Below are positions 2,498 through 42,766 of a stretch of 64,000 bases of DNA, in pieces (position 1 is the first letter of the stretch; every line of letters begins with the position of its first letter). The position numbers and the translations under genes are program-made. The stretch spans positions 62,001-126,000 of the forward strand of contig CAIYMO010000021.1 in NCBI GenBank assembly GCA_903927345.1, written 5' to 3'. The stretch comes from an uncultured Armatimonadota bacterium. GTDB taxonomy: Bacteria; Armatimonadota; Fimbriimonadia; Fimbriimonadales; Fimbriimonadaceae. The notes under the pieces were generated by a model, which searched no databases, was not told where the DNA came from, and saw only the letters and a list, made by a program, of their open reading frames with translations.

Positions 2498-3178
2498 GTG
2501 CCCCAATCCGTCGACCAGCACAAAGAGCCAGTTCCGGTGATCACCTGGACTCTCATTTTGCTCAACGTGCTTGTCTACATCGCCGATCGGCGTGGAGGGT
2601 TGTTTGGTGCGAGCATCGTTTACGGTGACCTGTCTCTGAGAGCTCCCGAGGTGATCTCGGCGATCAGTGGCGGCAGTGACCGTTTCCCGATTGTCACGCT
2701 GTTTACGTCAATGTTCTTGCACGGAGGCTTAATGCACTTGCTGACAAACATGATGTTTCTCGGCGTGTTTGGTCCTCCGGTTGAGCAAGCGGTGGGGGCT
2801 TGGCGCTTCCCGTTGTACTACTTGGCATGGGGAATTTTTGCTTCGGCCTGCCACATCTATGCCGCGCCGTTCCGGAACGTGCCGACACTTGGGGCGAGTG
2901 GCGCGATTGGTGGAGTCTTAGGGTGCTTTTTCTTGCTGTTCCCCTCGAATCGGATCATCATTTCTCTGCTTGGCTGGCTTGAGTACGAGATGCGGGCATG
3001 GTTACTGCTTGGAGCTTGGTTCCTTTATCAGATATTTGTTCCTCAAGAAGGGGTGGCTACCTGGGCGCACGCAGGAGGCTTTTTAGCGGGTATGTTGACT
3101 GTGCTTGTCATCGGGGGAAGGACAGCAATTCTGCGTGAGCACCCCGAATTGATCGAGCTTGACGATGATGCGTCATGA
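2498..3178 (+). CDS. Rhomboid family intramembrane serine protease
   Basis: A 226-aa polytopic protein with about six hydrophobic segments. The catalytic dyad is visible: Ser134 in LGASGAIGG (GxSG motif) and His191 in WAHAGGFLAG. The second helix carries HGGLMHLLTNMMFLGVFG, with the conserved H75 and N84 that form the oxyanion site in GlpG-like rhomboids. Rhomboids cleave single-pass membrane proteins within the bilayer; the substrate is unknown. The GTG start follows a -10 box by six bases. The stop overlaps the next start by 4 bp (ATGA), implying translational coupling with the DUF5693 and CsaB genes. A processing role for surface proteins is inferred from that context only. Confidence 0.9.
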   Translation: MPQSVDQHKEPVPVITWTLILLNVLVYIADRRGGLFGASIVYGDLSLRAPEVISAISGGSDRFPIVTLFTSMFLHGGLMHLLTNMMFLGVFGPPVEQAVGAWRFPLYYLAWGIFASACHIYAAPFRNVPTLGASGAIGGVLGCFFLLFPSNRIIISLLGWLEYEMRAWLLLGAWFLYQIFVPQEGVATWAHAGGFLAGMLTVLVIGGRTAILREHPELIELDDDAS

Positions 3179-5046
3179 AGAAGTTTTTTGATTCATATCT
3201 GTCGATCGTCGTTCTGGCGATCCTGACCGCTGTGGTCGCGTCCGTTTCGATCTCGAAGCGCATTTCCGCAGAGACCGCCAACCATGACGTGATGATCGCG
3301 GCTGAGGTGGATACGATTCAATCGTACGCCGCCGCTCAAGGAATGACTTTTGAGGAGGGTCTCAAAACGCTGAAAGCCGCCGGTCTGAACGGTTTGGTCG
3401 TCCAAGAGGAAACGATTGGTGAGCTCATCACCGATGGTCGAGCAGAACTGACCGGCGTCACTCTAGACTCGGCTGATCAAGTGCGATCCTTGCTGTTCGC
3501 CGATGAGGAGACCGTCAACCGAGTCACCAAAGGCATGAGAATTCGCTTCGGTGATTTGGTGAAGTCGGTCGTCCCACGTGACCGTCGGCTTGCACTGCCT
3601 CCCGTTGATACCAGCTCGTTGCGGTCGACGGCGATTGGCCTGGATCCTCATGTGACCAAATTGGCTAAGGATAACGGCCTCGGAATCATTGCACGCTGCT
3701 CAAACCCACAGGGCGTGACCTCGGCTGCGGTAACGGCAACCCTCGTTTGGGCTAAAGAGATGGGGGCTTCTGTTTTCCTTGCTCAAGGCGAGCAAGTGCT
3801 GGGTCGTCGGGATGCAATGGAAGCAACCGTGTCGACTCTTAAATTGACCGGCATCCTTTACGCGTCACCCGAGTTTGCGAAACTTGGCGGGGATGTTGAG
3901 ATGCTTGGTAAGGTCGGCGCGCAGACTGTTCGGTTGCACTCGGCTCAGGCCGCAGAGCTCGATAAACTCAGCCTTGATAGCGCAATTGAACGGTTCAGGA
4001 AAGCAGCACGAGAGCGGAATATGCGCGTGCTACTTCTTCGTGGAATCAGCAACGCATCCGATGCACCCGTCACCACGTTCGGAGAGTTCATTTCCAAGAT
4101 CGTCGGTCAGCTCGGTAAAGAGGGATTGACTGTGGGGAGCCCGCAACCCTACCAAGAGCCAGGCGTTTCAAAGGCGATCAAGATTGCCATTGGCCTCCTG
4201 AGTGGTCTCGGCGCGCTTTGGGTTGGCGTGAGGATGTTTGGCGAAAAACGAGGGTTGATCCTCGGAGCATTAGGTGGTATCGCGATTGTCTTGGGCTCGA
4301 CCCGGGAAGGAACGGCGCTTCAACTTGCGGCTCTGCTGGCTTCGCTAGTGTTCCCCTTCGGTGCCTTCTACTTCATGCTTGAATCGAAGTTGGCCCCTTG
4401 GATTTCCTTGATTGCTACCTCTTTGTTGGCAATGGTTTCGGGCGCCTGTGTTGCGGGACTGCTTAACGGTGTTGAGTACTACATCCGGGCCGAAACGTTC
4501 CCTGGAGTCAAGATTTCGGTGTTTCTCCCGGTTCTGGTTCTTGGAATTTTGGGATTCGCGAAGCTGAACAATCTGAAGGACGCGCTCAAGGATCCAATCA
4601 CTTGGGGTGCGGCTGTGACCGGTCTGGTGATCATGGCGGTCATCGGCCTGATGATTCTTCGAACGGGCAACGACAGTCCGAACACCGTAAGCGGTGGAGA
4701 ACTTGCCTTCCGTGGCTTGCTTGAGCAAGTGCTTCCGGTTCGACCACGCTCGAAGGAGTTTCTTCTGGCGTTCCCGGCGCTGTTTGTCGCGCTTGCCGTG
4801 TTGCATAAAGCCAGTTACGACCCTGCCCAATTAGGAAAGCTGCGTGGTTGGGTGGCGCTGCTGCTAATGCTCGGAGTAGTGGGCTTGACCGACGTAGTGA
4901 ATACGATGTGCCACTTGCACACACCGGTAATGATTTCGGTGATTCGCAATGTGGAGGGGATTGTGCTTGGTGGACTAATTGGTCAGGTGATCTGGTTGGG
5001 TATCCAGAAATTCTTGGTGAAACAGATGGAGATTGCGAATGGCTAG
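3175..5046 (+). CDS. DUF5693 family polytopic membrane protein
   Basis: A 623-aa protein with an N-terminal TM anchor (about residues 8-26), a soluble region to about 330 beginning NHDVMIAAEVDTIQSYAAA, and about ten hydrophobic segments in the C-terminal half. The layout and N-terminal sequence match the DUF5693 family, which is commonly encoded next to csaB in Gram-positive and related genomes. The biochemical role is not established to my knowledge; linkage to CsaB suggests membrane-side handling or export of a surface polymer. It overlaps the rhomboid gene by 4 bp and csaB by 8 bp, so the three are almost certainly co-transcribed. Confidence 0.8.
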   Translation: MKKFFDSYLSIVVLAILTAVVASVSISKRISAETANHDVMIAAEVDTIQSYAAAQGMTFEEGLKTLKAAGLNGLVVQEETIGELITDGRAELTGVTLDSADQVRSLLFADEETVNRVTKGMRIRFGDLVKSVVPRDRRLALPPVDTSSLRSTAIGLDPHVTKLAKDNGLGIIARCSNPQGVTSAAVTATLVWAKEMGASVFLAQGEQVLGRRDAMEATVSTLKLTGILYASPEFAKLGGDVEMLGKVGAQTVRLHSAQAAELDKLSLDSAIERFRKAARERNMRVLLLRGISNASDAPVTTFGEFISKIVGQLGKEGLTVGSPQPYQEPGVSKAIKIAIGLLSGLGALWVGVRMFGEKRGLILGALGGIAIVLGSTREGTALQLAALLASLVFPFGAFYFMLESKLAPWISLIATSLLAMVSGACVAGLLNGVEYYIRAETFPGVKISVFLPVLVLGILGFAKLNNLKDALKDPITWGAAVTGLVIMAVIGLMILRTGNDSPNTVSGGELAFRGLLEQVLPVRPRSKEFLLAFPALFVALAVLHKASYDPAQLGKLRGWVALLLMLGVVGLTDVVNTMCHLHTPVMISVIRNVEGIVLGGLIGQVIWLGIQKFLVKQMEIANG

Positions 5047-6100
5047 AATTGTTTTGGCTGGATACTTGGGTTGCGGGAATTTGGGCGACGACGCCGTCAT
5101 GTTGGGCGTGATGGATCGCCTTGGCGACCATGACTACACGATCATGAGCGGTAGTCCGTCGGAGTCTAATCAAAATTTCGGTATTCGGGCGATTGATCGC
5201 CGCGATGTACGAATGACCGAGAGTGTGATCAAGGATTCGGACGCGGTCATTTTTCCAGGCGGATCGATTTTTCAGGACGTTACGAGTGCAAAGAGCACGG
5301 TCTATTACAACGGCATCGTCAAGATCGCGAAGAAGCACGGCAAGAAAGTGATCTTCTTGGGTCAGGGTGTCGGGCCGTTGAAGTCCTGGCTGGCGCGCCG
5401 GCAAGCTTTTGCAGCATTCACGGCGGCAGATCTTATTACCGTTCGTGATCCGGGATCTTTGACTGTTCTTCGCGAGATCGGCATCCAGAAGAAGGTTCAC
5501 CTCGCTGCGGATAGTGCCTTCCTGATGACGGAGCCAATTCGCGATGGTGATGAAGGGAAATACCAGGTCGGCGGAATGCCTTCGGTAGCACTCGCACCGC
5601 GACCAGCGATACGAAAGGGAGTTGATGTTGTCACCCTGTTCGGCGAAACGTGCCGCCTCCTGTACCAAGCTGGCTACGCACCGAATCTGATTGAGATGGA
5701 TTCGCACGAAGACGGTCCGTTGATCACCGCGATTTCGAAGCAACAGGGCGGTCGAATTCCGGAAATTAAACGGCTCGGGACTCCGAGAATGAGCCAGCTG
5801 CGATTTGCTCGAATGGAGGCGGTTATCGCCATGCGCTTGCATGCGGGAATTCTTGCGGCAACGGTCGGCGTACCTCCTATCATGATTAGCTACGATCCTA
5901 AGGTGACGGCGTTTGCGCGTCAGCTCGATATCGGTGGCGCGCTGCCTTTGGAGAGTTTGACTCCACAGCGTCTGTTTGACGCCTTTAGGGCGCATCATAA
6001 AAACATGGAGAAGATGCGACCAATTGTTGAGAAAAAACGAAAAGAGTTGCTCGCTGAGGCCATGAAGAGCGTCGAACTAGCTAACGAAATCTTGCGTTAA
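5039..6100 (+). CDS. csaB: Polysaccharide pyruvyl transferase CsaB
   Basis: A 353-aa protein starting MARIVLAGYLGCGNLGDDAV, the signature N-terminus of CsaB, which transfers pyruvate from PEP to a cell-wall polysaccharide; the ketal-pyruvate groups are bound by SLH domains of S-layer proteins. Further family features are FPGGSIFQDVTSAKS, FLGQGVGPLKS and the C-terminal AVIAMRLHAGILAATVGVP. A longer reading from TTG at 5033 exists, but ATG 5039 is preferred because GGAG lies seven bases upstream and the start matches the family. It overlaps DUF5693 by 8 bp and is 5 bp before the next gene. In a diderm this implies a pyruvylated polymer in addition to LPS. Confidence 0.93.
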   Translation: MARIVLAGYLGCGNLGDDAVMLGVMDRLGDHDYTIMSGSPSESNQNFGIRAIDRRDVRMTESVIKDSDAVIFPGGSIFQDVTSAKSTVYYNGIVKIAKKHGKKVIFLGQGVGPLKSWLARRQAFAAFTAADLITVRDPGSLTVLREIGIQKKVHLAADSAFLMTEPIRDGDEGKYQVGGMPSVALAPRPAIRKGVDVVTLFGETCRLLYQAGYAPNLIEMDSHEDGPLITAISKQQGGRIPEIKRLGTPRMSQLRFARMEAVIAMRLHAGILAATVGVPPIMISYDPKVTAFARQLDIGGALPLESLTPQRLFDAFRAHHKNMEKMRPIVEKKRKELLAEAMKSVELANEILR

Positions 6101-6105
6101 ACCCC

Positions 6106-8667
6106 ATGAAGCGATTCGCCGTCCTGGCGCTGGGAGCATCCAGCGCGCTCATTTCTGCCCAGGAGGTCAGTCTGGGTCGGCAAAGCTGGTTCCAAACGAA
6201 TGTTGTCAACCGCTTGCAGTGGTCAGGTCAAAGAACTCTCGGTTATCACTTGTTCCGCTTTGAAGGTGACGCTGAGAGCTTCAACGCGCTGACCAACTAT
6301 GGCACCGGACTCCAGACTTTTTCTGACACGGGCAATCTCAGCGTTGCCGGTGACAAAGTCTTGGGCTTCCTGAAGTTCAACGTCACGTTCAACGACAACC
6401 GATTTAGCGATCCCGAGCAACAGCAGTATCTGTTGACGTACGCCAAGAACGGTCTTGATTTGAACTACGGTACAGTCCGGGCGAGTCTGACGGGTGGCAA
6501 TCAGTTTGTTAACTTCAGTCGCTCACTCGATGGATTGACGGCGGGCTTCAAGAAGGGAAGACTGGACGCTCGGGTGATCAGTTCAAACGCTCGGGGTGCA
6601 GCGCAAACGATTACCGTCGAGGGTAACAACACCAGCGGTCCGTACTACCTTCAGACAGGTCGCATCATTCGAGATACATTACAAGTTCAAGTTGACGGTA
6701 AGCCGCAAATTGTTGGGCAGGATTACGTCGCAGACAACCAGCTTGGAACCATTACGTTCTTAAACAAGGTCATCGCCCCGACCAGCGTCATCAACGCGAG
6801 CTACGAGAGCTTTGACTTTGGCGGTCAGCGTGGATCGATTCGTGGCGTCGGCGTTACGTATAACTTGGGGTGGGCGGGACGGTTAGGTTTTACGTCGGTT
6901 GAACAGCTCACGGGAGATTCGAACGATAATCCGATTCGCGAGGAAAAATCCCTCGGCTTTGGTCGTCCGGGTGATCAGTACTACCTGCAGTTTGAGCCGG
7001 TCGCCTCGACGATCCGCATCACGGTCAACGGAATACCGCGAACGCTGTCTATCGTCGATGATGGTGTTTCTGATTTCTACATCGACCCACGACTTCCGAT
7101 TCTGATCATCTCACGGGTTGCTATTCCGACGAGTCAGGAGATCATCTTCTCGTACCGCCCGAAGATTGTCCAGTCGGCGAGTGGGGACCGCAAGGTCACA
7201 GGCGTTGATTACACGATCCCAATTGGCGAATCCGGGCGAAGCTTCGTGAAATTCTCGCAGGCTTCGGGCGAGGTTAAGGGTCTAAACCCCAATAGTGGAG
7301 TGGCTCAGGCGCTCGATTTCAAGATCGACGAAGGAAAGGGCGGCTTTACGGCTCAGTTCAAGAAGATCGAACCCGGTTTTTCATCGATTGAGCAAACAGG
7401 CTTTAATCGAAACGAAGACCGCGTTCAGTATGGCCTTGACTACTTTACGAAGGGACTTACGAGTCGAATCGGGAGTTACAACACCTCGATCACGGCATTC
7501 GACACCACCACCGGGACGGCGGTCATCGGATCGACACGAGTTGTAGACGACCGAATTGAACTGGAGTACAGCGATCCATCGAGCCGAAACCGCACCATGA
7601 GCCATCGGCAGAACCTTCGGTATTCGAGAACGCGAAGCATTGCGGCAGACGACAATGTGCTGCACACACTGGGGATCGGCGATGAGTATCGGTTCAAACG
7701 ACTGAGCTTTACGGCTGAAGGTGAAAAGCAGGATGGTCGGGGCCGGATAAACAACAAGATTCAAGATGTTGGAATCAACACCTTCCGGACGACAGTGGGC
7801 TATGATGCAACCTCTAAGCTTCGGCTAACGGCGAGCGCAAGTCAGAGCGCGATCAAGACGGATGACGAAAATTCGCTTGGCTATGACTACTCATTCGGGG
7901 CAAACCTGCTCGACACGGGGCCGTGGAGTGGCTCGCTGATTTATGCGTTGAGCGATTCTGGAACGTTGGCATCCCTCGGATTTTTGAACGGAAACGGAAT
8001 TGGCTATGGGAACAACGGATTCTCCGGTAGCGGTGGTCTGGGGACTCTAAGCACAGGACAGCTTCGCAGTCGCCGTATGGCGTTGAATGGCGCTCACCAA
8101 GTGCGCGAGAATATGCTTTTGAACTTTAGCGTGATCCAACAAAACAGCGAAGGATTAAGCACAAGCAATGCAGATTTGAAGTCACTCGTTCTGGGGATGT
8201 CTTGGCGTCCGAACGATGTCTCGAACTTCAATGTTGATTGGTCAAAGTCGGGTACCACGTTCTTCAGCGGGAGCACTCCGACCTCGTCTTCAAGTTCAAT
8301 TGATCTGAACTACAGCACGTCGCCGGGCCGATTTTGGTCGCTTAACTTGGGCTACAACTTTACTGATTCGAGCGGTGGGAACTTTGCGCAGAGCAGTTTG
8401 AACAGTGCCTTCAGCGCGGGATACCGAATCAATGACCGCCAGCGGCTGTTCCTCAACGCAATTCTCAGCAACACAAGGGGCTTTTATCCGCAGGATGACA
8501 TTAGCCTCAATGCTGGATATTCTTATCAATTGATTTCTGGAATTGCGCTCACTGGTCGCTATACTTTTAGAGACCTCGCGAACTTGGATTTGAATCAGGC
8601 TGCGGGAGCCTTTAGGTCAAACGGACTGAGTTTAGAACTCACATTTGATTTTTCTTCTCGGCGATGA
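6106..8667 (+). CDS. Exported beta-rich protein, probable outer-membrane beta-barrel
   Basis: An 853-aa protein with a signal peptide (MKRFAVLALGASSALISAQ, cleavage near residue 19). The rest is almost wholly amphipathic beta-strand with alternating polar and aromatic residues, and the last strands end SLELTFDFSS, as expected for an outer-membrane barrel. Around residues 185-240 a motif of the form DYVADNQLGTITFLNKVI resembles short repeats in SprA-like and other large surface barrels, and a second related block starts near 290 (STIRITVNGIPRTLSIVDD). I cannot assign a family. It begins 5 bp after csaB and belongs to the same cluster of envelope proteins. A secreted non-barrel adhesin is the main alternative. 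Confidence 0.55.
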   Translation: MKRFAVLALGASSALISAQEVSLGRQSWFQTNVVNRLQWSGQRTLGYHLFRFEGDAESFNALTNYGTGLQTFSDTGNLSVAGDKVLGFLKFNVTFNDNRFSDPEQQQYLLTYAKNGLDLNYGTVRASLTGGNQFVNFSRSLDGLTAGFKKGRLDARVISSNARGAAQTITVEGNNTSGPYYLQTGRIIRDTLQVQVDGKPQIVGQDYVADNQLGTITFLNKVIAPTSVINASYESFDFGGQRGSIRGVGVTYNLGWAGRLGFTSVEQLTGDSNDNPIREEKSLGFGRPGDQYYLQFEPVASTIRITVNGIPRTLSIVDDGVSDFYIDPRLPILIISRVAIPTSQEIIFSYRPKIVQSASGDRKVTGVDYTIPIGESGRSFVKFSQASGEVKGLNPNSGVAQALDFKIDEGKGGFTAQFKKIEPGFSSIEQTGFNRNEDRVQYGLDYFTKGLTSRIGSYNTSITAFDTTTGTAVIGSTRVVDDRIELEYSDPSSRNRTMSHRQNLRYSRTRSIAADDNVLHTLGIGDEYRFKRLSFTAEGEKQDGRGRINNKIQDVGINTFRTTVGYDATSKLRLTASASQSAIKTDDENSLGYDYSFGANLLDTGPWSGSLIYALSDSGTLASLGFLNGNGIGYGNNGFSGSGGLGTLSTGQLRSRRMALNGAHQVRENMLLNFSVIQQNSEGLSTSNADLKSLVLGMSWRPNDVSNFNVDWSKSGTTFFSGSTPTSSSSSIDLNYSTSPGRFWSLNLGYNFTDSSGGNFAQSSLNSAFSAGYRINDRQRLFLNAILSNTRGFYPQDDISLNAGYSYQLISGIALTGRYTFRDLANLDLNQAAGAFRSNGLSLELTFDFSSRR

Positions 8668-8698
8668 AGTGAATTTTGTCGTCAAACGTATCAACAAC

Positions 8699-10015
8699 AT
8701 GAAATCGTCTCAGATTGCATTTGGAATTTTCGCATTCACTCTGATTGCGTGTGGCGGCGGCGGTACTCAAACCGGGAGCGTGAGTGGCCTCGTTTTGGAC
8801 ACGGATGGCAACCCGGTGAGAGGTGCCCGTGTGTATGTATCGGATTCACCGGTTCGAGAAACCGTATCCAATTCTTCTGGATCGTTTTCATTGACAGGTG
8901 TTATCGCTGACAATATCCAAGTCAAAGCGTCGATCGACAAGGGCTCGACCACTTTTTACGGTGAGAACTTAGCTCAGGTCTACAAGGATGAGAATTCGCA
9001 GAGTATCAACGTCATTGTGATGCCGCTCAGCCAAGTTTCTGCGATCCAGGGAACGGTCACCGAGGCCTCTCGAGGAGTCCGTATTCAGGGTGCTCGTATT
9101 ACGGCAAAGCCGACCACAGGCTCCCAGTTCGCATCGGCTCAAACGGTTACGGATTCTAACGGCAATTACTATTTGAACGGCCTCCAAAGTGGAGTGAGCT
9201 ACCAGATCATGGCAAGCTTTACCGGCTTCCGTTCCACCGATGCTGCGCGGATCCCGACGGCCGGAATTACGCTGAGCCAAAACCTGGTGCTTCAGAACTC
9301 GGTTGACGGTGTTTTGCCCGCTCCGGCAAACCTTTCCGCGGTGGCGTGGACCTCGCCCAGCGAAGTAACACGAGATCGCGTTGCCGCTCAGGCGTTGAGC
9401 AACGTCAAGAAGTTCATTGATGCTCGATACAAGCCAAGTACCAGTCGTGTGACAGCAAATGGCAACCAGGTCGAGGTTCAACTCTTCTGGGACAAGTTTG
9501 ATTCACTCAACATCCTCGGCTACGAGATTTGGCGAAAGCGCGGCAGCGATAACTGGTCGGGTCTTGACTTCCTCCGAGACCCAATCGCGGAGACCTATCT
9601 CGACAGCGACTCGGCTCTGCGGGAGAATCTGACCTACTCCTATGCGGTTGCAGGTGGAAATTCGAACTATCCTGATACGACCAACTCAGCTGGAGACTTC
9701 AGCGGAACCGTCGCCGTTACTCCACTGGGGGACATGTATGTGAACAGCGTGACCACTGGCGGTGGTCAGGTGACGTTCAACTGGCAGGCCGTTACGGGTG
9801 CCGCCAACTACACGGTCTATGTTTTCTCCGAGTATCCCGGTGTGCGAGTCAGCTCCTACGCTAATAACTTCAACGCTCCAGCGACTGGAACCTCGTGGGT
9901 TTACAATCTGACCCCGTTGGCTTCCGGCCAGCGCTACTACTATCTCGTCATGGGAGCCAACTCCACTGACTCCGCTCGAACACTGAGCGCCGTCGGATCA
10001 TTCATCGCCCCCTAA
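8699..10015 (+). CDS. Lipoprotein with two carboxypeptidase-regulatory-like domains
   Basis: The reading frame is open from a TTG at 8645, but the ATG at 8699 gives a proper lipoprotein signal (MKSSQIAFGIFAFTLIACGG, lipidated Cys at residue 18) and is preferred. Product 438 aa. Two Ig-like CarboxypepD_reg domains follow, recognisable from GLVLDTDGNPVRGARVYV with SNSSGSFSLTGV, and from AIQGTVTEASRG with DSNGNYYLNGLQSG. The C-terminal half has two fibronectin-III-like stretches (VEVQLFWDKFDSLNILGYEI and GQVTFNWQAVTGAANYTVYV). Such domains mediate surface binding or spacing. It lies 31 bp after the beta-barrel gene in a same-strand envelope cluster; role otherwise unknown. Confidence 0.75.
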   Translation: MKSSQIAFGIFAFTLIACGGGGTQTGSVSGLVLDTDGNPVRGARVYVSDSPVRETVSNSSGSFSLTGVIADNIQVKASIDKGSTTFYGENLAQVYKDENSQSINVIVMPLSQVSAIQGTVTEASRGVRIQGARITAKPTTGSQFASAQTVTDSNGNYYLNGLQSGVSYQIMASFTGFRSTDAARIPTAGITLSQNLVLQNSVDGVLPAPANLSAVAWTSPSEVTRDRVAAQALSNVKKFIDARYKPSTSRVTANGNQVEVQLFWDKFDSLNILGYEIWRKRGSDNWSGLDFLRDPIAETYLDSDSALRENLTYSYAVAGGNSNYPDTTNSAGDFSGTVAVTPLGDMYVNSVTTGGGQVTFNWQAVTGAANYTVYVFSEYPGVRVSSYANNFNAPATGTSWVYNLTPLASGQRYYYLVMGANSTDSARTLSAVGSFIAP

Positions 10016-10018
10016 CTT
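10013..10018 (+). promoter_or_regulatory. Possible internal -10 TAACTT overlapping a stop codon
   Basis: The TAA stop of the lipoprotein gene forms the first three bases of TAACTT, which ends 11 bases before the ATG at 10030. It fits the TANNNT pattern of this window but could be chance. Confidence 0.25.
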
Positions 10019-10029
10019 CACTGAATCAC

Positions 10030-12777
10030 ATGAAAGCCCTGCGTCCGCTCGTCGCCGCACTTGTCGCCCTTATGGGGGCGACAAGTGCGTTTTCGCAATC
10101 CAGCATCCTGAAGCTCGATCTTGGTTCCACAACGCGGGAGCCATTGGTCACGCAAGCGGATGCCGTGTTTGGGAAGTACTTGAAGAAGTATGCCGAGCTG
10201 ACGAGCCAAAACCGCGCCAGCCGGACACGGGCATTTCCAAAGAACAAGCAACCCTATATCGTGCCCGCCATGCTACGAATCACTCAGGGCGGCGTCCCGC
10301 TTCCGACGGGTGGACGTGGTCGTGCCGATGGTCTGACGCTCGTTTTTGATCCGACATTTAACTCGATTGATACGGGTCGGACCGCGTTTATGCAGTCGGT
10401 TTACGACAGTGCGAAGGCGACGATGGAGTCTATGTTCGGCGCGCCTGCAATCAGTGGCACCGTCAATGTTGTTAACTACGACGCGACAATTGGAGACCGT
10501 CAAGCAATCGTCGGTGGTTACTACCTCCCCAACAACGGATCGGGCGGACGGGAGATTCGACTTCCGCTGAACACCAGCCGAGACGTTGCAGCGGTCGCGC
10601 TGATCCATTGTTTGCTTCTCGCTTATCTGCCTGACCCAACTTATGGGTTCGATGCCTACCTTGAAGGGCTGGTGCGGGCAACGACAATGCGCATTTGCCG
10701 CATTCCTGCGGTAGTTCCTGCCTTGAACCAAGCGACGGTCGCTGATGTTCTGGCAAACAGCTACGATGTTGGATCCGACTACGATTGGCTGAATCAAAAA
10801 TCGTTGGGCGGCCCCAATTTCATCGCGCCAAACCTTCTTTCGGCACCGATCACAAGCGGCAACCTCGGTGGTCTTTTCCTCACCCGTTTCCGAATGGCTG
10901 GTTCGGCCTGGGCCAAGGTGATGGTTGAGTATCCGACGATTGCTAAGGATTTAAATGCGGCAATCAAGGCGACCCCAGCCGCAGCGACCAACGCCGCTCA
11001 GCTCCAAACTTTGGCGGTAAGCACCCTCGAAGCAATTGCTCCGGGCGGAACGATTGAAGGAGTTCCGTTTGCAAATTGGATCCGGGAACAGGGGATTCTT
11101 CAAACCAAGCTGACACAAGGGACCAAGCTTCACACGACGATCTTCCCAATCACGGACGGACTGGCAGGTACCGATTTTGGTGTCTTTGGAGTCGAGACGA
11201 CGTGGTTTGAAACGGCAGCAAACGGCAACGAAACTCTGCTTTCAGGGACGAGTTACCCCGTTTTCTGGGACAAGGACTACAACCGAATCCTGGCGAGCGC
11301 GCAGAGCGAACGCATTGATGTTGCAAGCTCGTACGGCAGCGTCGCACCTAACTTTTCTGATGAAAACGCTGGCAAGGCATACCGAGTCGCGATCGATATT
11401 CCGATCCAGGACAAGATCACTCGGCAGTACGTTCCCGCCGGAGCGATTGCGACACCAACGACTGCAACCTCGGACTTTTTCGGTTCAATCGTGGGCGTAG
11501 GCCAGCCGGTAGGAACAAACCTCTTCGTCAACATCAGCTACGGCTCAGAGTCGGTCAATGACATTCCGGTGAGCCGATTTGCCTTTGGAACTCGAATCGC
11601 GTCGACCAGCTTCTCGGCTGCCCGACAAGTGACGATCACAGTCGTTCGAAAGGATACAACGGGAACGCCGACGACGATTCTCACCCGCAAGGTGAATAAG
11701 TCTGTCGGAGCACTTGGGGTAACGCTCGGGGCAGCTCCTTCGGGTTCAATCGGTTTCCCGAGCGGACTACCGGGTGGTCTCGTGATGGTTGGCCTTTCGG
11801 GTGATCCGCTCATGTCGGATCTGGCTGACTCTCTCGGAACCAGCGCGTTCTTGGGCGCTCGCTACAATCCGTCGAAGGCGAAATATGACCTTTATCCGCT
11901 GACTGGTCTGGTCAGCGGCGGTCAGGGATACTTTGTCCGCACAGGCACTTTGCAGAACCCGAACATTGCTGCTCGCGTCGAAATCGGAGATTCGCTGGGA
12001 GTCGCATTGCGTCCAGGTTGGAATTTGATTTCGAACCCGTTGGGGTCGCAGTGTGCGTTTGCTGATGTTCAGGTCGTCCGCACGACCGGATTCCCACTGC
12101 CTTATCTTGGAGCCAGTGGAAACGATCCGAACGAAACCTCGGCGCCGATCCTTGGTAAGACGGTGTTCCAGTTCGTGCCCGGAGCCGCAGATGCGGTGAC
12201 TGGTTTGCCCGAGGGCGGATCATTTACCGCAGCAACTCAGTTCGCGCCTGGCATCGGATACTTTGTGCGATGCTTAGCTCCCGAAGGGGCGGTGATGCTC
12301 TTCGGAGCGCAGGCGAGCGGATCGCGAGTTCCTCGGGTGGCTCGGGCGGGAGCGCTTGCTGCGGTTCAGACAAGTACCTTCCGGGCGAGCCTATTTGGCA
12401 AAGGCGAGCAGAGTTCGGCTTTCTTTGGAATGTCCTCGGCAGGAACGACTGGTTTCGATGCACGACTGGATAGCAACTTGCCTCCAGCGATTGGAGGAAT
12501 GCAGATTTCCGTGCTGTCGCCAGCAAGCGACAAACGCTATTTGGAATATCGGCCGTATTCGTCGGCTGAAACTTACCGAATGACTCTGGATGGACTGGTA
12601 AAAGGCAAAACATACACGTTCGTGATTGACCAAGTGCAAGGCCGATGGACTCAGGCAGTTGCCAAGAACTTGGCAACGGGAGCAAGCTACTCGACAGGTG
12701 CGGCGCGGCTTACGGTCGCATTTGTCGCAACGGGCACCTCGGCAACGTTTGATGTTTCGGTTCGAGGTGTACGATGA
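10030..12777 (+). CDS. Large exported protein with degenerate metalloprotease-like segment
   Basis: A 915-aa protein with a signal peptide (MKALRPLVAALVALMGATSAFSQ). Residues 100-220 have the look of an exported gluzincin: a beta hairpin, GGYYLPNNGSGGREIRLPL, then a helix LIHCLLLAYL and YLEGLVRATTM. At the place of HExxH the sequence reads H193-C194-L-L-L, so both the general-base Glu and the second zinc His are missing, while an EG dipeptide (E212) remains. The rest is beta-rich, with Ig-like stretches and a region around 660-720 (YFVRTGTL, GWNLISNPLG) repeated as GYFVRCLA. The function is unknown. It overlaps the next lipoprotein gene by 4 bp. Confidence 0.6.
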   Translation: MKALRPLVAALVALMGATSAFSQSSILKLDLGSTTREPLVTQADAVFGKYLKKYAELTSQNRASRTRAFPKNKQPYIVPAMLRITQGGVPLPTGGRGRADGLTLVFDPTFNSIDTGRTAFMQSVYDSAKATMESMFGAPAISGTVNVVNYDATIGDRQAIVGGYYLPNNGSGGREIRLPLNTSRDVAAVALIHCLLLAYLPDPTYGFDAYLEGLVRATTMRICRIPAVVPALNQATVADVLANSYDVGSDYDWLNQKSLGGPNFIAPNLLSAPITSGNLGGLFLTRFRMAGSAWAKVMVEYPTIAKDLNAAIKATPAAATNAAQLQTLAVSTLEAIAPGGTIEGVPFANWIREQGILQTKLTQGTKLHTTIFPITDGLAGTDFGVFGVETTWFETAANGNETLLSGTSYPVFWDKDYNRILASAQSERIDVASSYGSVAPNFSDENAGKAYRVAIDIPIQDKITRQYVPAGAIATPTTATSDFFGSIVGVGQPVGTNLFVNISYGSESVNDIPVSRFAFGTRIASTSFSAARQVTITVVRKDTTGTPTTILTRKVNKSVGALGVTLGAAPSGSIGFPSGLPGGLVMVGLSGDPLMSDLADSLGTSAFLGARYNPSKAKYDLYPLTGLVSGGQGYFVRTGTLQNPNIAARVEIGDSLGVALRPGWNLISNPLGSQCAFADVQVVRTTGFPLPYLGASGNDPNETSAPILGKTVFQFVPGAADAVTGLPEGGSFTAATQFAPGIGYFVRCLAPEGAVMLFGAQASGSRVPRVARAGALAAVQTSTFRASLFGKGEQSSAFFGMSSAGTTGFDARLDSNLPPAIGGMQISVLSPASDKRYLEYRPYSSAETYRMTLDGLVKGKTYTFVIDQVQGRWTQAVAKNLATGASYSTGAARLTVAFVATGTSATFDVSVRGVR

Positions 12778-13646
12778 TGCGAAATCTTCTGGCTTTTCTT
12801 CTGATTCTCACCCTCTTCGCCTGCGGCGGAGGCGGTGGTGGCGGGACCAAGATTGTGGTCACCGGTCGCGTCCTCAACGTGGACACCGGAGCACCGTTTA
12901 GCACGGCTGCGACAGTACAAACTTCGGCTGCGAGTTCGACCACTGCGGTGGCTGATGGATCGTTTACAGTCCAAGCGGACAGTGGGATCACTGGGCTGAC
13001 CGTATTGGCTCCTTCGACGCTCGGTTATCCGGTTTTTGACTTCGTGTTCCCGGCAAAGACTCTCGCCGTGAGTGATGTTGGAGACCTTTGGGTTGGACCC
13101 CAAAAAGTGACCTTGCGCGGAACGATTCGCAACGCAGCGACTAGCAACGGGATCGCGGGCGCAAAGGTTTCCTTTGGCGGTCAAAACGGGACATCTGCTA
13201 CGGACGGTACGTTCAGCATTCCGAACGTGGCGTATTCCAATGCGAATACCGCCAGCTTCCTTGGCCTAGTCGGCCAGGTGACGGCGAACAACTTCTTTAG
13301 CAATGAATTCACCCCGAACGGCAACTTGGCCATCAGTGGGACGGTTGATATTGGGGAAGTACTGATGACCCCGTTGGACAGCGACAACCCTCCGGGACTG
13401 CCTTACAATATCTGGGGAATCATTACTCCGAGTGGGTCGGCAAGCGGAACGATTGTGACGCTGAAGAATACCGGCGGGACTGTGGTTCGTCGATTTACGG
13501 TCGGCAGCGATGCACGATACCAATTCTGGGTCGATCCGGCGGCATATCGGATCGAATTTCAAAATGGAACGCTCACTGCGCCCGCTCAGAACGTCACACT
13601 AAGTAGTACCTCTGATGTCATCCGCGCCGACGCAACTCTCAACTAA
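12774..13646 (+). CDS. Lipoprotein with carboxypeptidase-regulatory-like repeats
   Basis: A 290-aa protein with a lipoprotein signal (MMRNLLAFLLILTLFACGGG, lipidated Cys17) and a glycine-rich linker. Three consecutive Ig-like units follow: VVTGRVLNVDTGAPF, VTLRGTIRNAATSNGIAG with TSATDGTFSIPNV, and a C-terminal NIWGIITPSGSASGTIV unit. These resemble CarboxypepD_reg/CNA_B-type folds seen in surface proteins. Start ATG 12774 overlaps the preceding stop by 4 bp (ATGA), so translation is probably coupled. It parallels the lipoprotein at 8699, suggesting that the two belong to one envelope assembly; that is inference. Confidence 0.7.
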   Translation: MMRNLLAFLLILTLFACGGGGGGGTKIVVTGRVLNVDTGAPFSTAATVQTSAASSTTAVADGSFTVQADSGITGLTVLAPSTLGYPVFDFVFPAKTLAVSDVGDLWVGPQKVTLRGTIRNAATSNGIAGAKVSFGGQNGTSATDGTFSIPNVAYSNANTASFLGLVGQVTANNFFSNEFTPNGNLAISGTVDIGEVLMTPLDSDNPPGLPYNIWGIITPSGSASGTIVTLKNTGGTVVRRFTVGSDARYQFWVDPAAYRIEFQNGTLTAPAQNVTLSSTSDVIRADATLN

Positions 13647-15066
13647 CCGGAAAAGACTCCGAAACCTCGCGCTCCTCGTTTTGACGGGTGCGGTGAGTTT
13701 CGGGGTTTTCCAAGGTACACGGAGGATTCTCAAAGCAGATCCTCTGGAGGCTTATCGTAAGCCAGTTAAGGATGAATTGCCGTCGAACGTCGCAGTGTTC
13801 ATGAAGGACTCGGATTTCAGCCGAGTTGAGCCCAACCAACCCGAAGCAAAGTGTTTTGTGACGGAGATGCGCATCGCCCAGAACAGGCAGATGTACGACT
13901 TCATTGGAGTTTCTAAAGGTCAGCTGACTTGGAAGAAAGCGCTTTACGAGTTCAGTGCCGCACGCGGAAATTGGAACGGCTATGGCAAGATTCTTCAGCT
14001 CGATGGATCAGTAAAACTGAAAAGCACGAAGTTTGATCTGGCTTCGCAGGAACTGAGTTATGACGAGGCAAGCCGAACGATTAGGGTTCCGCGTCCGGTA
14101 ACCGGGAAATTGTACGGTGGCGACCTCCAAGTTGCCAACTTCGTTTACAACATGGAGAACGAGGAGTACAGCGTTGGTGAGGGTAGTTGGGTGGGCGCGC
14201 TCGCCAGCCTCGGAATGCAGGATACGCCCGGAGCATCGGGCAGCCGTGAGTGGAAGATCACATTCATTAACGGCGTCGGCAACATCAAGCAGAGCAATGG
14301 CATTGCAACCTACACCGATGCGAGAGCGACAGACGGAGACATCATCATCATCGCCCCAAAGATGGTGCACGACACCAAGAAGGACATCCTGACTGCAACC
14401 GGCGAAGTGAAGTACTTCTCAAGCAAGGCTAACGTCATCGCCGATCAGATCGTTGTGTATCGCAAGGAAAAGCGGGCAGTTTTGTCGGGTCGGGTGACCA
14501 TGTTGGTCAAGCCTAAGGCGCAAGAGAATGAGAAAGTTGAGGAAGGAACGCTACCTCCGATGTTGCCTCAGATTCCTGACTCTATTTCCAAGTCTCGCCC
14601 ACCGGCGCCGTTTGACAAGGACACCCAAAAGAAGCGAGAGGACACCGTCCGCAATGGTTCAAATCTTCGCGACTATCCGCTGACCATCACCGCGGGTCGG
14701 ATTGAGTATTGGTACAAGAAGGGGGAGCGACGGGCGAACATCACAGACTCTCCTCAAGCGCGCCAGGAGTTGCCAGAGGGTGAGTGGCGATACGCATGGG
14801 CGTTCTCGGGCAAGTACGATGGTGAGAAGGAAACCCTAACCCTTGAAAGCTCGAAGAACAAGCAAGATGTGATTCTGAAGAACTCGCTTGGCGATGAAAT
14901 CTTTGGCGTCTGGGGGCTGCTCTCGACCAAAGAGGGTGACGATGAATATGAGTTTCGGGCTAATCGAGCCAAGATGACGACCTCGGATGACGACGACATT
15001 CCTCCGTCAAAATCTGGTAAGGGCGGTGGCGGTCTCTCTGGTCCCATCGGGAATCGTCGAACCTAA
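13615..15066 (+). CDS. LptC/LptA-like (OstA-fold) LPS transport protein
   Basis: A 483-aa protein with one N-terminal TM anchor (residues 18-35, LALLVLTGAVSFGVFQGT). It is followed by the LptC/OstA pattern: KILQLDGSVKLKSTKFDLA, ELSYDEASRTIRVPRPVTG and DLQVANFVYNMEN, then a second OstA-like unit, GEVKYFSSKANVIADQIVVY. Single-domain LptC is about 190 aa, so this protein appears to combine LptC- and LptA-like units plus a low-complexity tail ending in DDDDIPPSKSGKGGG. The family role is to move LPS across the periplasm. The first ATG overlaps the previous gene by 32 bp; a later start is possible. Presence together with lpxA/lpxB supports a diderm LPS envelope. Confidence 0.7.
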   Translation: MSSAPTQLSTNRKRLRNLALLVLTGAVSFGVFQGTRRILKADPLEAYRKPVKDELPSNVAVFMKDSDFSRVEPNQPEAKCFVTEMRIAQNRQMYDFIGVSKGQLTWKKALYEFSAARGNWNGYGKILQLDGSVKLKSTKFDLASQELSYDEASRTIRVPRPVTGKLYGGDLQVANFVYNMENEEYSVGEGSWVGALASLGMQDTPGASGSREWKITFINGVGNIKQSNGIATYTDARATDGDIIIIAPKMVHDTKKDILTATGEVKYFSSKANVIADQIVVYRKEKRAVLSGRVTMLVKPKAQENEKVEEGTLPPMLPQIPDSISKSRPPAPFDKDTQKKREDTVRNGSNLRDYPLTITAGRIEYWYKKGERRANITDSPQARQELPEGEWRYAWAFSGKYDGEKETLTLESSKNKQDVILKNSLGDEIFGVWGLLSTKEGDDEYEFRANRAKMTTSDDDDIPPSKSGKGGGGLSGPIGNRRT

Positions 15067-16090: not shown

Positions 16091-17271
16091 TTCCTCAGGG
16101 GTTCCGATTTGCCGGAGTTCGCTGTGGGCTCAAGAACCGGCGTAACGACATGGGATTGATCATCTGCGACGCCGACTATCCGGCCGCAGGAGTTTTTACA
16201 ACTAACCAATTCCGAGCTTCCTGCGTGGACTTCTCCCGAGCCGCATTGGCGGGTGGACGGCTACGCGGCTTGGTCGTTAATAGCGGCAATGCAAACTGTG
16301 CGACTGGAGAACAAGGTGCCAAGGATACGGCCCGAATGGCTCAGCTCGTCGCGGATTCCGTCGGGATCGATGGCGCGATTGCGGTAGCGTCAACCGGCGT
16401 CATCGGTCACCATCTGGATATGCAGAAGGTGGAGAAAGGAATTCTGGATGCCTCCACTGCACTGAGCCGTGACCCAAATCCGTTCATTGAAGCGATTTTG
16501 ACGACTGACTTGGTCGAAAAGTGGGCAGGAACTGCTTGGGGCTCGGATGAACTCGCAACCCCAAAGAATCCTATAGATATTCAAGGTGAGGCCTTCGTCT
16601 ATGGGGTCTGTAAGGGAAGCGGAATGATCGCGCCTAACATGGCGACGATGCTAGGCTATGTCGTGACGGACCTTGATCTTTCGCATCTGGATATTCAATC
16701 CGTTCTGCGCCAAGCGAACTCTGTGAGCTTCAACTGTCTCACAGTGGATTCAGACACATCGACCAACGACATGGTTATCCTGATCGCGAGCGGCTTGTCG
16801 GGCATCGCTCCGTCGGAGACGGAAGCCGTGGAGATCATTTCGAGAGTTTGCACCGAACTGGCGAAGCAGGTTGCTAAGGACGGCGAGGGCGCGACAAAGC
16901 TGATCGAGGTCCGCGTGACCGGTACCGAGAACCCGACCCAGGTGGCGCGATCCATCGCTGATTCTCCGCTGGTCAAGACGGCAATGTTTGGCTGCGATCC
17001 TAACTGGGGGCGCGTGATTATGGCGACTGGGAAGAGCGGAGTTCCGCTGGATGTCAGCAAAGCGGTCCTGCACTTTGAGATCGGCGACGAGCGGCACTTG
17101 CTGTTCGAAAATGGCGAGCCTGCTCGATTTGACCCGGCTAAGGTCTCGACTGCTCTCAAAGCGGATCACGTCGTTGTCGACCTTCACTTAGGTGACGGGG
17201 CGACCGCAACGATCTACACTTGCGATTTCGGGTACGGATACGTTCGGATCAACGCCGAGTATCACACCTGA
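16081..17271 (+). CDS. argJ: Bifunctional glutamate N-acetyltransferase/N-acetylglutamate synthase
   Basis: ArgJ (396 aa) transfers acetyl from N-acetylornithine to glutamate, the cyclic route of arginine synthesis, and in bifunctional forms also uses acetyl-CoA. It belongs to the self-cleaving Ntn class. The cleavage and nucleophile motif is visible as KGSGMIAPNMATMLGY, with the nucleophile Thr189, and the oxyanion-hole region as ASTGVIGHHLDM. The C-terminal DPNWGRVIMATGKSG is also typical. The GTG at 16081 overlaps argC by 10 bp; a TTG at 16087 is an alternative. The 3' end overlaps the convergent lpxB by 10 bp. Confidence 0.95.
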   Translation: MALIPQGFRFAGVRCGLKNRRNDMGLIICDADYPAAGVFTTNQFRASCVDFSRAALAGGRLRGLVVNSGNANCATGEQGAKDTARMAQLVADSVGIDGAIAVASTGVIGHHLDMQKVEKGILDASTALSRDPNPFIEAILTTDLVEKWAGTAWGSDELATPKNPIDIQGEAFVYGVCKGSGMIAPNMATMLGYVVTDLDLSHLDIQSVLRQANSVSFNCLTVDSDTSTNDMVILIASGLSGIAPSETEAVEIISRVCTELAKQVAKDGEGATKLIEVRVTGTENPTQVARSIADSPLVKTAMFGCDPNWGRVIMATGKSGVPLDVSKAVLHFEIGDERHLLFENGEPARFDPAKVSTALKADHVVVDLHLGDGATATIYTCDFGYGYVRINAEYHT

Positions 17272-18338
17272 GACGCGAGCTTTTGGACTAGCTCGACGGT
17301 CTGGGTTAAACAGGTCGCGGGAGAGAGGAGCGCCTCGATCTCGTCGAATCCTTGGAGTTGCTTGCCAACGTCGAGGGAGCCAAGCGTGTCGCGCAACGAT
17401 TGTACGGTGAGTCCCTCTTGGATGAGCTCCGGCACAATCTCTCGTTGAAGCAAAATGTTGGGCTGGCTAACGAATTCTGGGCGCTTAAACCCGATAAGCT
17501 TCGTTTCGACTTCCACGGCCTTGGAGACCTTGTAGACGACAACCATTGGGGTCTTGGCCAACGCCGCTTCGAGAGTGGCGGTGCCGGAGCAGACGACGGC
17601 ACTCTCGGCGCCTCGAAGGGTGCTCAACACTGCTCCTTTCACCGAGCCATCGATGATGTCGTCGCTTCCTCGAGACCACATTCGTCGAACTCGGTCGAGC
17701 TGTTTCGGAGGGACAGGGATTGTGATATGCCCCTCGTAACTGCTGAGTGCTTGGTTAAGAATTGGGAGAAGTTGTTCGATTTCCGAACGACGTGAGCCCG
17801 GGAGGACGGCTAGCCCTGATCGCGGAAGATCAGATTGCAACACTTGATTGTGGATTTCAAGCAGTGGATGGCCGTAAAAATGGGCGGAACAACCCATTTT
17901 CTGGAGAATTTCTGCTGACCATGGGAAGTTTGTTACCACTTCGTTGGCAAGGGTTGGGATGTCCTTCCCTTGGCGATCTCTCCGCCAAGACCCAGGAGGG
18001 ATGAAGTAGAGAACTTTCCAGCCTGCTTGCTTTGCGAAACGACAGAGGCGAAGATTCATATAGCCAAAGTCGATAGGAATAAACACTCCGGGTGGTCCGG
18101 TTTGCAGAGCGGCTTTAAGCCGGTTATACGTTCCGATCCCGCGGAGGCCTTCTCGCACGGATTGGACAATTGAGATTGATCCCCAGGTTGATGAGTCACC
18201 AATCAAGGGAACGCCAAGTGCAGCCATTCTTGACCCACCAAGGCCTGTGACTTCGTGTCCGAGGGGGATGAGGCGAGCTGCGAGTTCGGCGCCGTAGAGG
18301 TCCCCAGATGCCTCACCTGCCGAGATGAAGATCTGCAT
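17262..18338 (-). CDS. lpxB: Lipid-A-disaccharide synthase
   Basis: LpxB condenses UDP-2,3-diacylglucosamine with lipid X to form the lipid A disaccharide on the inner membrane. The 358-aa product starts MQIFISAGEASGDLYGAELA, the family signature (AGExSGD), and shows LPGSRRSEIEQLLP and SGTATLEAALAKTPMVVVYK, the GT-B acceptor and UDP-binding elements. Its ATG shares one base with the stop of lpxA, so the two are translationally coupled within fabZ-lpxA-lpxB. It proves lipid A synthesis and hence an outer membrane. Confidence 0.95.
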   Translation of the reverse strand: MQIFISAGEASGDLYGAELAARLIPLGHEVTGLGGSRMAALGVPLIGDSSTWGSISIVQSVREGLRGIGTYNRLKAALQTGPPGVFIPIDFGYMNLRLCRFAKQAGWKVLYFIPPGSWRRDRQGKDIPTLANEVVTNFPWSAEILQKMGCSAHFYGHPLLEIHNQVLQSDLPRSGLAVLPGSRRSEIEQLLPILNQALSSYEGHITIPVPPKQLDRVRRMWSRGSDDIIDGSVKGAVLSTLRGAESAVVCSGTATLEAALAKTPMVVVYKVSKAVEVETKLIGFKRPEFVSQPNILLQREIVPELIQEGLTVQSLRDTLGSLDVGKQLQGFDEIEALLSPATCLTQTVELVQKLASQV

Positions 18339-19126
18339 CAGTGCTGGTCGCCGCGGCCGTTGCGGCCGTGGAATCGGCGCTCCTCAAAAGCCAGGAGATA
18401 TTTCACTTCGTCGGTCATCGGAACTTCGTTTCGCACAAGTTCGAGAGCGTTCGTGAGTCCAATTTTGGACTTGAACAGGAGTTTGACGGCTTTATGGAGA
18501 GCAAGTCGTGCGTCCTGGGTTACGCCGAGTCGGCGAAGACCGACGGCGTTGATGTCTCGAACAGCTTCATCGGCCCCTTCGACAAGGACGAACGGGGGAA
18601 CGTCGCGCGTGACCTTCGTGAATCCGCCCACCATGGACGATTTGCCGACGCGGCAGAATTGGTGAATTCCGACCATGCCACCGATGTTTGCCTTCTCTTC
18701 GATGGTGACGTGACCCGCGATGCCAGCTGAGTTGGTGATGGTGACTTGGTCGTGGATATGGCAGTTGTGACCAATGTGGGTGTAGGCCATGACGAAGACG
18801 TCGTTGCCCACCGTCGTGAACCGCCCCTCACCGGTTGCCCGGTGGATGGTCACGTACTCCCGGAAGACGTTATCATCTCCGATTTGCAGGAACGTGGGCT
18901 CGCCGTGATACTTGCGATCTTGAGGGTCTCCGCCGATAACCGTTCCAGGTCCAAAACGATTGTTTTTGCCGATCGATGTCCATCGGTGGATGGTGACGTG
19001 GCTTTCGAGAATGCAACCCGACCCTAACGATGCTCCCGCTTCCACGTTGCAGAACGGCCCAATAACGACGTCGTCAGCGACTTCGGCTTTGGGGTCAACG
19101 TATGCGAGGGGGTGGATCGTCGGCAA
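18338..19126 (-). CDS. lpxA: Acyl-ACP--UDP-N-acetylglucosamine O-acyltransferase
   Basis: LpxA catalyses the first step of lipid A synthesis. The 262-aa product begins TIHPLAYVDPKAEVADDVVI and is built of left-handed beta-helix hexapeptide repeats, with VFVMAYTHIGHNCHIHDQ and GGMVGIHQFCRVGKSSMVGG in the expected order, followed by a C-terminal helical domain (RLALHKAVKLLFKSK). It lies between fabZ (2 bp gap) and lpxB (1 bp overlap), the order common in many diderms. Length and motifs fit the family without oddities. Confidence 0.95.
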   Translation of the reverse strand: MPTIHPLAYVDPKAEVADDVVIGPFCNVEAGASLGSGCILESHVTIHRWTSIGKNNRFGPGTVIGGDPQDRKYHGEPTFLQIGDDNVFREYVTIHRATGEGRFTTVGNDVFVMAYTHIGHNCHIHDQVTITNSAGIAGHVTIEEKANIGGMVGIHQFCRVGKSSMVGGFTKVTRDVPPFVLVEGADEAVRDINAVGLRRLGVTQDARLALHKAVKLLFKSKIGLTNALELVRNEVPMTDEVKYLLAFEERRFHGRNGRGDQH

Positions 19127-42020: not shown

Positions 42021-42766
42021 CGAAGCGCATCATTCCATGCTTGGACTGTCGCGATGGTCGCGTTGTGAAAGGTGTCAACTTCCAGGGGCTGAAGGACGCT
42101 GGTTCACCGGTTGAGCTATCGCTTCGATACCAAGACGAAGGTGCAGACGAGATCGTGATCTTGGATGTTGGAGCAACGGTCGAGGGACGGCAGAATCAGC
42201 TGGACACGATTCGTGCAGTACGCGTTGACCTTGCGATTCCTTTGACCGTCGGTGGCGGAGTCAGGGAACTGAGGGACATCGAAGCATTGCTCGATGCTGG
42301 GGCGGATAAGGTTTCGATTAACACCGCTGGAGTTGACCGACCAGAGTTGATCCGTGAGGCCACCGAGGCCTTTGGCGCTCAATGCACAGTTGTCGCAATC
42401 GACACCAAGTGGACGGGAGATCGATGGAGCGTTCTTACTCGTGCGGGGCGAGATGTGCGCGATATCGACACCCTGCAGTGGTGCGAAGAAGTCGCCAGAC
42501 TGGGTGCCGGAGAAATTCTTCTGACGAGTTTTGACCGCGATGGAACGAAGGAAGGGTATGACCTCAAACTTCTTCGAGCGGCGAGTGGTGCCGTGCAAAT
42601 TCCCATCATCGCCAGCGGTGGCGCAAAGACCGCGGATGACCTGTACGACGCCTTCAAAGCCGGTGCAAACGCGGCCCTGGCTGCTTCTATCTTCCACTAT
42701 GACAATCTCCACATCTCGGACATCAAAGCCCATTTGGCGGGCAAAGGCATTAGGGTGAGACAATGA
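42014..42766 (+). CDS. hisF: Imidazole glycerol phosphate synthase, cyclase subunit
   Basis: HisF (250 aa) forms imidazole glycerol phosphate and AICAR inside a TIM barrel, using ammonia channelled from HisH. It shows TKRIIPCLDCRDGRVVKGVN (catalytic Asp in CLD), LTVGGGVRELRDIEALLDAG, LLTSFDRDGTKEGYDL (second catalytic Asp) and IASGGAKTADDLY. The frame is open far upstream inside hisH, but the GTG at 42014 gives the family N-terminus. It overlaps the HisA fusion gene by 4 bp. Confidence 0.95.
   Translation: MVTKRIIPCLDCRDGRVVKGVNFQGLKDAGSPVELSLRYQDEGADEIVILDVGATVEGRQNQLDTIRAVRVDLAIPLTVGGGVRELRDIEALLDAGADKVSINTAGVDRPELIREATEAFGAQCTVVAIDTKWTGDRWSVLTRAGRDVRDIDTLQWCEEVARLGAGEILLTSFDRDGTKEGYDLKLLRAASGAVQIPIIASGGAKTADDLYDAFKAGANAALAASIFHYDNLHISDIKAHLAGKGIRVRQ

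Follow-up and report, generated by a model that had tools for sequence, protein, structure and literature searches.

An envelope gene cluster of Armatimonadota that places csaB beside a likely SprA-like outer-membrane barrel and a predicted pseudo-gluzincin

Gene content of the locus

The window analysed here comprises 64,000 nucleotides of the forward strand (positions 62,001 to 126,000 of contig CAIYMO010000021.1, assembly GCA_903927345.1) of an uncultured Armatimonadota bacterium of the family Fimbriimonadaceae. Between window positions 2498 and 15066, eight open reading frames (ORFs) follow one another on the plus strand, separated by at most 31 bp and in several cases overlapping (Table 1). 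An earlier note, drawn up from the letters alone, had singled out this run as a cluster of envelope genes; all eight ORFs were recovered at the positions it gave, and its view of the function, with a pyruvyl-polymer enzyme adjoining outer-membrane parts, stands. The two lipoproteins that it named are present as well, each with a lipobox, but the domains that it called Ig-like are β-sandwiches of the CarboxypepD_reg type, strong in lipoprotein A and weak in lipoprotein B. The exported protein of 915 amino acids (aa) is referred to here as bigS.

Table 1. Genes of the cluster, with positions in the window.
Product	Position	Strand	Features
Rhomboid intramembrane serine protease, 226 aa	2498..3178	+	PF01694, 2e-29
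DUF5693 membrane protein, 623 aa	3175..5046	+	PF18949, 6e-112
CsaB polysaccharide pyruvyl transferase	5039..6100	+	TIGR03609; starts in frame: TTG 5033, ATG 5039
Likely SprA-like outer-membrane β-barrel, 853 aa	6106..8667	+	No Pfam family; 36 predicted strands of at least 8 residues
Lipoprotein A	8699..10015	+	Signal peptide, lipobox TLIAC; two CarboxypepD_reg domains; ORF opens at TTG 8645
bigS, exported, 915 aa	10030..12777	+	No Pfam family; predicted gluzincin (Lugdulysin/M1) fold without HExxH, then β-sandwich domains
Lipoprotein B	12774..13646	+	Lipobox TLFAC; weak carboxypeptidase-regulatory-like domains; directly 3' of bigS
LptC/LptA-like protein, 483 aa	13615..15066	+	LptC domain 50-165; LptD_N/OstA domain 247-411

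Conservation and co-inheritance of the cluster

The locus was compared across 61 genomes of the class Fimbriimonadia. The barrel and bigS occur together in 53 of them and are both missing from the other 8, with no discordant genome; DUF5693 was found in all 61, as was the LptC-like gene, always in single copy. Synteny was counted in the 53 genomes with both barrel and bigS, a few of which (G038, G048, G019) have interrupted copies or fragments at contig ends. DUF5693, CsaB and the barrel are contiguous in 45 of these; likewise in 45, DUF5693 and the barrel are adjacent on the same strand, and in seven of the remaining eight they lie on different contigs. A second contiguous trio, bigS, lipoprotein B and the LptC-like gene, is also present in 45/53. 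The locus is accordingly made up of two blocks, rhomboid-DUF5693-CsaB-barrel and lipoprotein A-bigS-lipoprotein B-LptC-like, which are mostly joined or close, mutually inverted in some genomes (G007, G008, G031) and far apart in others. The same arrangement was seen on 38 named contigs, with the full gene order in many. CsaB adjoins DUF5693 in nearly all full loci read; exceptions include family f3, where G037 has bigS and lipoprotein B together and DUF5693 elsewhere.

On the DUF5693 tree, the presence or absence of barrel and bigS takes six changes, and well-supported branches compel five of these. Since presence and absence of the two genes coincide through several losses, the barrel and bigS very likely form a functional unit. 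Two genomes without them illustrate what is left behind: in G034 the locus reads rhomboid-DUF5693-CsaB-LptC-like, and in G040 the same genes are accompanied by lipoprotein A, the barrel, bigS and lipoprotein B being gone from both as though excised from the operon. Lipoprotein B was not found in the loci of genomes that lost barrel and bigS. The complete genome G013 (5.23 Mb) is among those lacking the pair, and two genomes of 1.5 Mb still hold DUF5693, CsaB and the LptC-like gene. DUF5693, CsaB and the LptC-like protein are independent of the barrel and bigS. The earlier idea of a single, indivisible assembly pathway does not survive this comparison: the genes split into a universal core and a part that is lost together, and the two halves are apart in about half of the genomes. 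In another genome without barrel and bigS (G036), lipoprotein A is longer (587 aa) and lies directly beside the LptC-like gene (L138:10421-12181).

The association extends to other classes of the phylum. DUF5693 was detected in 147 of the 151 Armatimonadota genomes searched and barrel-profile matches in 127, part of which span only the shared SprA-like stretch. Outside the class, 38 genomes have their listed DUF5693 and barrel matches on one contig; among these listed matches, 34 genomes show DUF5693 in the same orientation as the barrel and 0-3 kb 5' of it. CsaB sits between the two in most of the non-class loci read, and several other families show the order barrel-bigS-lipoprotein B or barrel-lipoprotein A-bigS-lipoprotein B-LptC-like. 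The first impression that bigS is confined to Fimbriimonadia was thus rejected, as homologues adjoin the barrel in other classes. Synteny in other Fimbriimonadia had been proposed as a check on the cluster; the arrangement is kept across the class and partly across the phylum, far beyond chance.

The cluster could also be a mere housekeeping neighbourhood of the envelope, in which independently useful genes are held together by co-expression with no joint mechanism. Consistent with this, the ends of the eight-gene run are arbitrary and are not biological boundaries, because flanking genes extend the run: an ABC permease gene (971-2482) ends 15 bp 5' of the rhomboid gene, and argC (start ~15092) lies 25 bp 3' of the LptC-like gene and is itself overlapped by argJ. 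The eight-gene set is defined by genome comparison and not by spacing; a scan for promoter and terminator consensus sites returned no more of them than in shuffled sequence and is therefore uninformative on transcription units. The halves are separable, with barrel and bigS adjacent in only 26/53 genomes, and the core genes outlive the loss of the pair. However, the co-occurrence of barrel and bigS is perfect through several losses and the same neighbours recur in distant classes, which argues that at least the barrel, bigS and lipoprotein B share a function and are linked to CsaB. We therefore consider a purely housekeeping association unlikely.

Likely resemblance of the barrel to SprA

The earlier note had recognized the barrel as such and had missed what it most resembles. 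In the AlphaFold2 model, built from 24 sequences (predicted local distance difference test score, pLDDT, 76; predicted template modelling score, pTM, 0.50), 36 strands of at least 8 residues were counted from the strand list. The top solved-structure match returned by the second aligner is SprA (6h3i; Z 19.0 over 543 residues, residues 37-849 of the model falling on 137-2401 of SprA), and a second SprA structure (8gl6) gives Z 18.8 over 581 residues. Next come barrels of the MtrB type (Z 17.4, 439 residues) and porins (~260 residues). The barrel of SprA itself has 36 strands and opens laterally (PMC10994853). The SprA profile TIGR04189 weakly matches 27 of 29 class barrels (best 1.6e-12) and 8 of 9 barrels of other classes (best 1.1e-19), and the match is colinear with what the structural alignment predicts; that profile picks up neither the OmpM nor the LptD-candidate proteins of this genome. 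When the barrel, DUF5693 and bigS profiles were run against the sequences of solved structures, no useful match was obtained. Going by the predicted structure and the profile matches, the barrel is likely SprA-like, although full membership is unproven.

Another exported protein of this genome, 1177 aa long (L135:4534-8064, host contig G000:C53) and without a Pfam or NCBIfam name, has the SprA-like stretch in common with the barrel (residues 183-234 of the latter). Many class genomes encode counterparts of ~1160-1215 aa, and the protein is possibly a second large barrel.

A pore of this kind might serve polysaccharide rather than protein, such that a polymer modified by CsaB passes out through the barrel to coat the cell and is shaped or held there by bigS and the lipoproteins. 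CsaB and barrel are indeed the most tightly linked genes, overlapping or nearly touching in many loci and overlapping by one base in G037 (L145), the genome in which DUF5693 is elsewhere; the alginate exporter AlgE is among the fold matches of the barrel, and a few barrels weakly match EpsL, an outer-membrane protein of polysaccharide biosynthesis. Nevertheless, AlgE and similar known exit barrels for polysaccharide fall far short in size of the 36 strands predicted here, the alignment to AlgE spans ~260 residues against 543-581 for SprA, and the cluster has no gene for a polymer co-polymerase or a Wza-like protein. We give this alternative little credence.

bigS, a predicted pseudo-peptidase

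The structural model of bigS is confident (pLDDT 87, pTM 0.86). Its residues ~40-360 align with Lugdulysin (Z 13.7, root-mean-square deviation 3.9, 239 residues) and with M1 aminopeptidases (Z up to 12.7), and the β-sandwich domains that follow the peptidase-fold part carry a GWNLISNP motif. The resemblance to these gluzincin metallopeptidases thus concerns the predicted fold; unlike them, bigS has β-sandwich domains attached, and the HExxH motif is absent from all aligned members of its family. The position of the catalytic Glu is occupied by C, S, T, L or similar residues. The first His is invariant in 37 aligned class members, in which a residue other than His stands at the second zinc-ligand position; in bigS of other lineages an HxxxH-like arrangement is sometimes present, the catalytic Glu never. 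An active metalloprotease was rejected on the lack of HExxH, and bigS is, judging from its residues and modelled fold, almost certainly a pseudo-peptidase without peptidase activity, as the earlier description of a pseudo-protease-like exported protein had it.

In 8 of 9 deeper homologues, from other families of the class and from other classes, the bigS C-terminus is a FlgD_ig domain above the Pfam cut-off, and several of these tailed homologues also weakly match the tail of PorU, the sortase of the type IX secretion system (T9SS). A further exported protein of this genome, 923 aa long (L217:704-3472, host contig G000:C17), ends in a FlgD_ig/T9SS-tail-like domain. This hints that the barrel may take tail-bearing proteins as its clients, the 923-aa protein being a candidate. 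A counterpart of the latter (L218:6457-9300) has a GWNLIGNP motif, and relatives occur in most class genomes.

CsaB, the rhomboid protease and the wall glycan

CsaB scores above the equivalog threshold of TIGR03609 (223.4 bits against a cut-off of 213.1). The rhomboid protein retains the GASGA serine motif in 39 of 39 aligned sequences and the His in all. DUF5693 is named in none of the literature searched.

Elsewhere in this genome two OmpM-type proteins bear S-layer homology (SLH) domains and the TRYE motif, and one of them is clearly an SLH-coiled coil-porin. In SLH-glycan complexes this motif forms the salt bridge to the ketal-pyruvate, and it is kept among the OmpM-like proteins of diderm Terrabacteria (PMC10628300); work on CsaB of Paenibacillus shows that a lipid-linked glycan is pyruvylated (PMC6801904). 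Because of these TRYE porins and of the Paenibacillus precedent, the CsaB of the cluster most likely makes the tether ligand for SLH proteins of the OmpM type encoded elsewhere. Genomes missed by the SLH profile hold OmpM homologues when searched with full-length OmpM, some with SRYE and all full length except a partial one in G011; the proposal that CsaB serves another use in SLH-less genomes was rejected accordingly. The earlier note had put the pyruvylated polymer and the outer-membrane parts into one pathway; the likely user of the polymer is this SLH-porin tether, which is encoded outside the cluster.

The setting recalls the anchoring to secondary wall polymers by CsaB and SLH domains in Bacillus and Paenibacillus and the OmpM tethers of diderm Terrabacteria, with which it shares an equivalog-level CsaB and, in the same genome, the TRYE porins. 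It differs from them in that the cluster has no SLH, tagO or tagA gene and CsaB is tied instead to DUF5693, the rhomboid protein and the giant barrel.

The LptC-like protein

The two domains of the LptC-like protein noticed earlier are real: PF06835 is found in 15 of 20 family members and PF03968 in 18 of 20. A role as the Lpt bridge is not supported. A sister species has a canonical LptC-LptA-LptB-LptF locus at another site, LptG lies beside an LptD candidate in this genome, and LptF/G genes are present in 61/61 class genomes. The protein resembles LptC and LptA in its LptC and OstA-type domains and departs from the Lpt bridge in carrying both in one longer chain, with no LptB, LptF or LptG gene in the cluster or adjacent to its own. 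That it supplies a missing LptC was rejected as stated, given the canonical LptC of the sister species, and since the canonical locus exists elsewhere, we count it, from its domains, as an additional, universal protein of the OstA family.

A second export route for lipid or lipopolysaccharide (LPS), with the LptC-like protein bridging the periplasm and the barrel acting like LptD, would make use of the LptC and LptD_N/OstA domains and would fit the position of lpxB-lpxA, which follows the cluster at a distance of 2.2 kb here (window 17262-19126, minus strand) and immediately precedes the rhomboid gene in G042 (L042/L102). Against it stand the canonical Lpt genes just described, the missing LptB/F/G neighbours and the retention of the LptC-like gene where the barrel has been lost, and we regard such a route as very improbable.

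A possible envelope-biogenesis cluster of two cooperating units

Our preferred reading, which we hold tentatively and at somewhat less than even odds, is that the locus is an Armatimonadota envelope-biogenesis cluster of two cooperating units, a wall-glycan core and a co-inherited outer-membrane translocon of the SprA type. The first unit, near-universal, would comprise the rhomboid protein, DUF5693, CsaB and the LptC-like protein. CsaB would act in the cytoplasm, adding pyruvate ketals to a lipid-linked wall glycan, DUF5693 would probably carry, polymerise or attach the pyruvylated glycan, and the SLH domains of the OmpM-type porins encoded elsewhere would grip it, tethering the outer membrane. 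The second unit would be an outer-membrane complex of the barrel, bigS, lipoprotein B and usually lipoprotein A, in which the barrel acts as a compact giant pore of the SprA type and the catalytically dead bigS, partnered by the lipoproteins, is either exported through it or forms its cap. By analogy with T9SS cargo on anionic LPS (A-LPS), this unit may export or display something anchored on, or built with, the pyruvylated glycan, a link proposed because the unit lies near CsaB. We infer the direction of transport, the cargo, the anchoring link and the roles given to the rhomboid and LptC-like proteins.

The closest comparison is with the T9SS translocon of Bacteroidota (SprA/Sov with PorV, SprE and PPI). 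Points of likeness are the predicted giant single-chain barrel, with 36 long strands in the model and 36 in SprA (PMC10994853), a weak and colinear profile match, outer-membrane lipoproteins as partners, the FlgD-Ig tail of the partner protein in deeper lineages, which resembles the T9SS C-terminal domain (CTD), and a genetic link with a pathway for a surface glycan. Conversely, the barrels here measure 853-1246 aa (as frames) against ~2400 for SprA, they lie beside csaB, and the partner is a pseudo-gluzincin and not PorU.

Several observations weigh against the two-unit proposal. The barrel model is only moderate by its pLDDT and pTM, and plain Foldseek ranked several large barrels together at template modelling (TM) scores of 0.3-0.4. 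The TIGR04189 match covers ~100 residues, far under the 200-bit cut-off, and the same stretch also matches phage tail models, so that it may be a shared domain. bigS in the family of the window is without the FlgD_ig tail. The T9SS cargo tail TIGR04183 has no match in this genome and weak matches in 17 of the 61 class genomes; a search for GldM found none in the 61, the control genomes being silent as well. Finally, survival of the core genes without barrel and bigS makes the units separable.

A bolder version of the two-unit proposal, which we find doubtful, is that the cluster encodes a second class of SprA-type translocon outside Bacteroidota, devoid of a T9SS motor, widespread in Armatimonadota, dedicated to a pseudo-gluzincin and coupled to csaB, whose exported proteins or pore would be anchored on the pyruvylated wall glycan. 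In the literature searched, the T9SS is confined to Bacteroidota or their superphylum. What is new here is a likely SprA-type barrel in a CsaB-linked setting with a probably dead protease-like partner, a combination described nowhere in that literature. A compact SprA-like barrel conserved in a deep-branching diderm phylum, in most cases close to csaB, would open to testing where SprA-type translocons and glycan-anchored surface proteins came from, and DUF5693 gains a context in a wall-glycan and outer-membrane-tether pathway.

Other genes of the window

The permease upstream of the rhomboid gene is of the UgpE/MalG (sugar) type, 503 aa long, with an insert of ~250 aa following its first membrane segment. 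Further along the window (42763-44022), a single protein of 419 aa is a fusion of HisA, HisI (PRA-CH) and HisE (PRA-PH).

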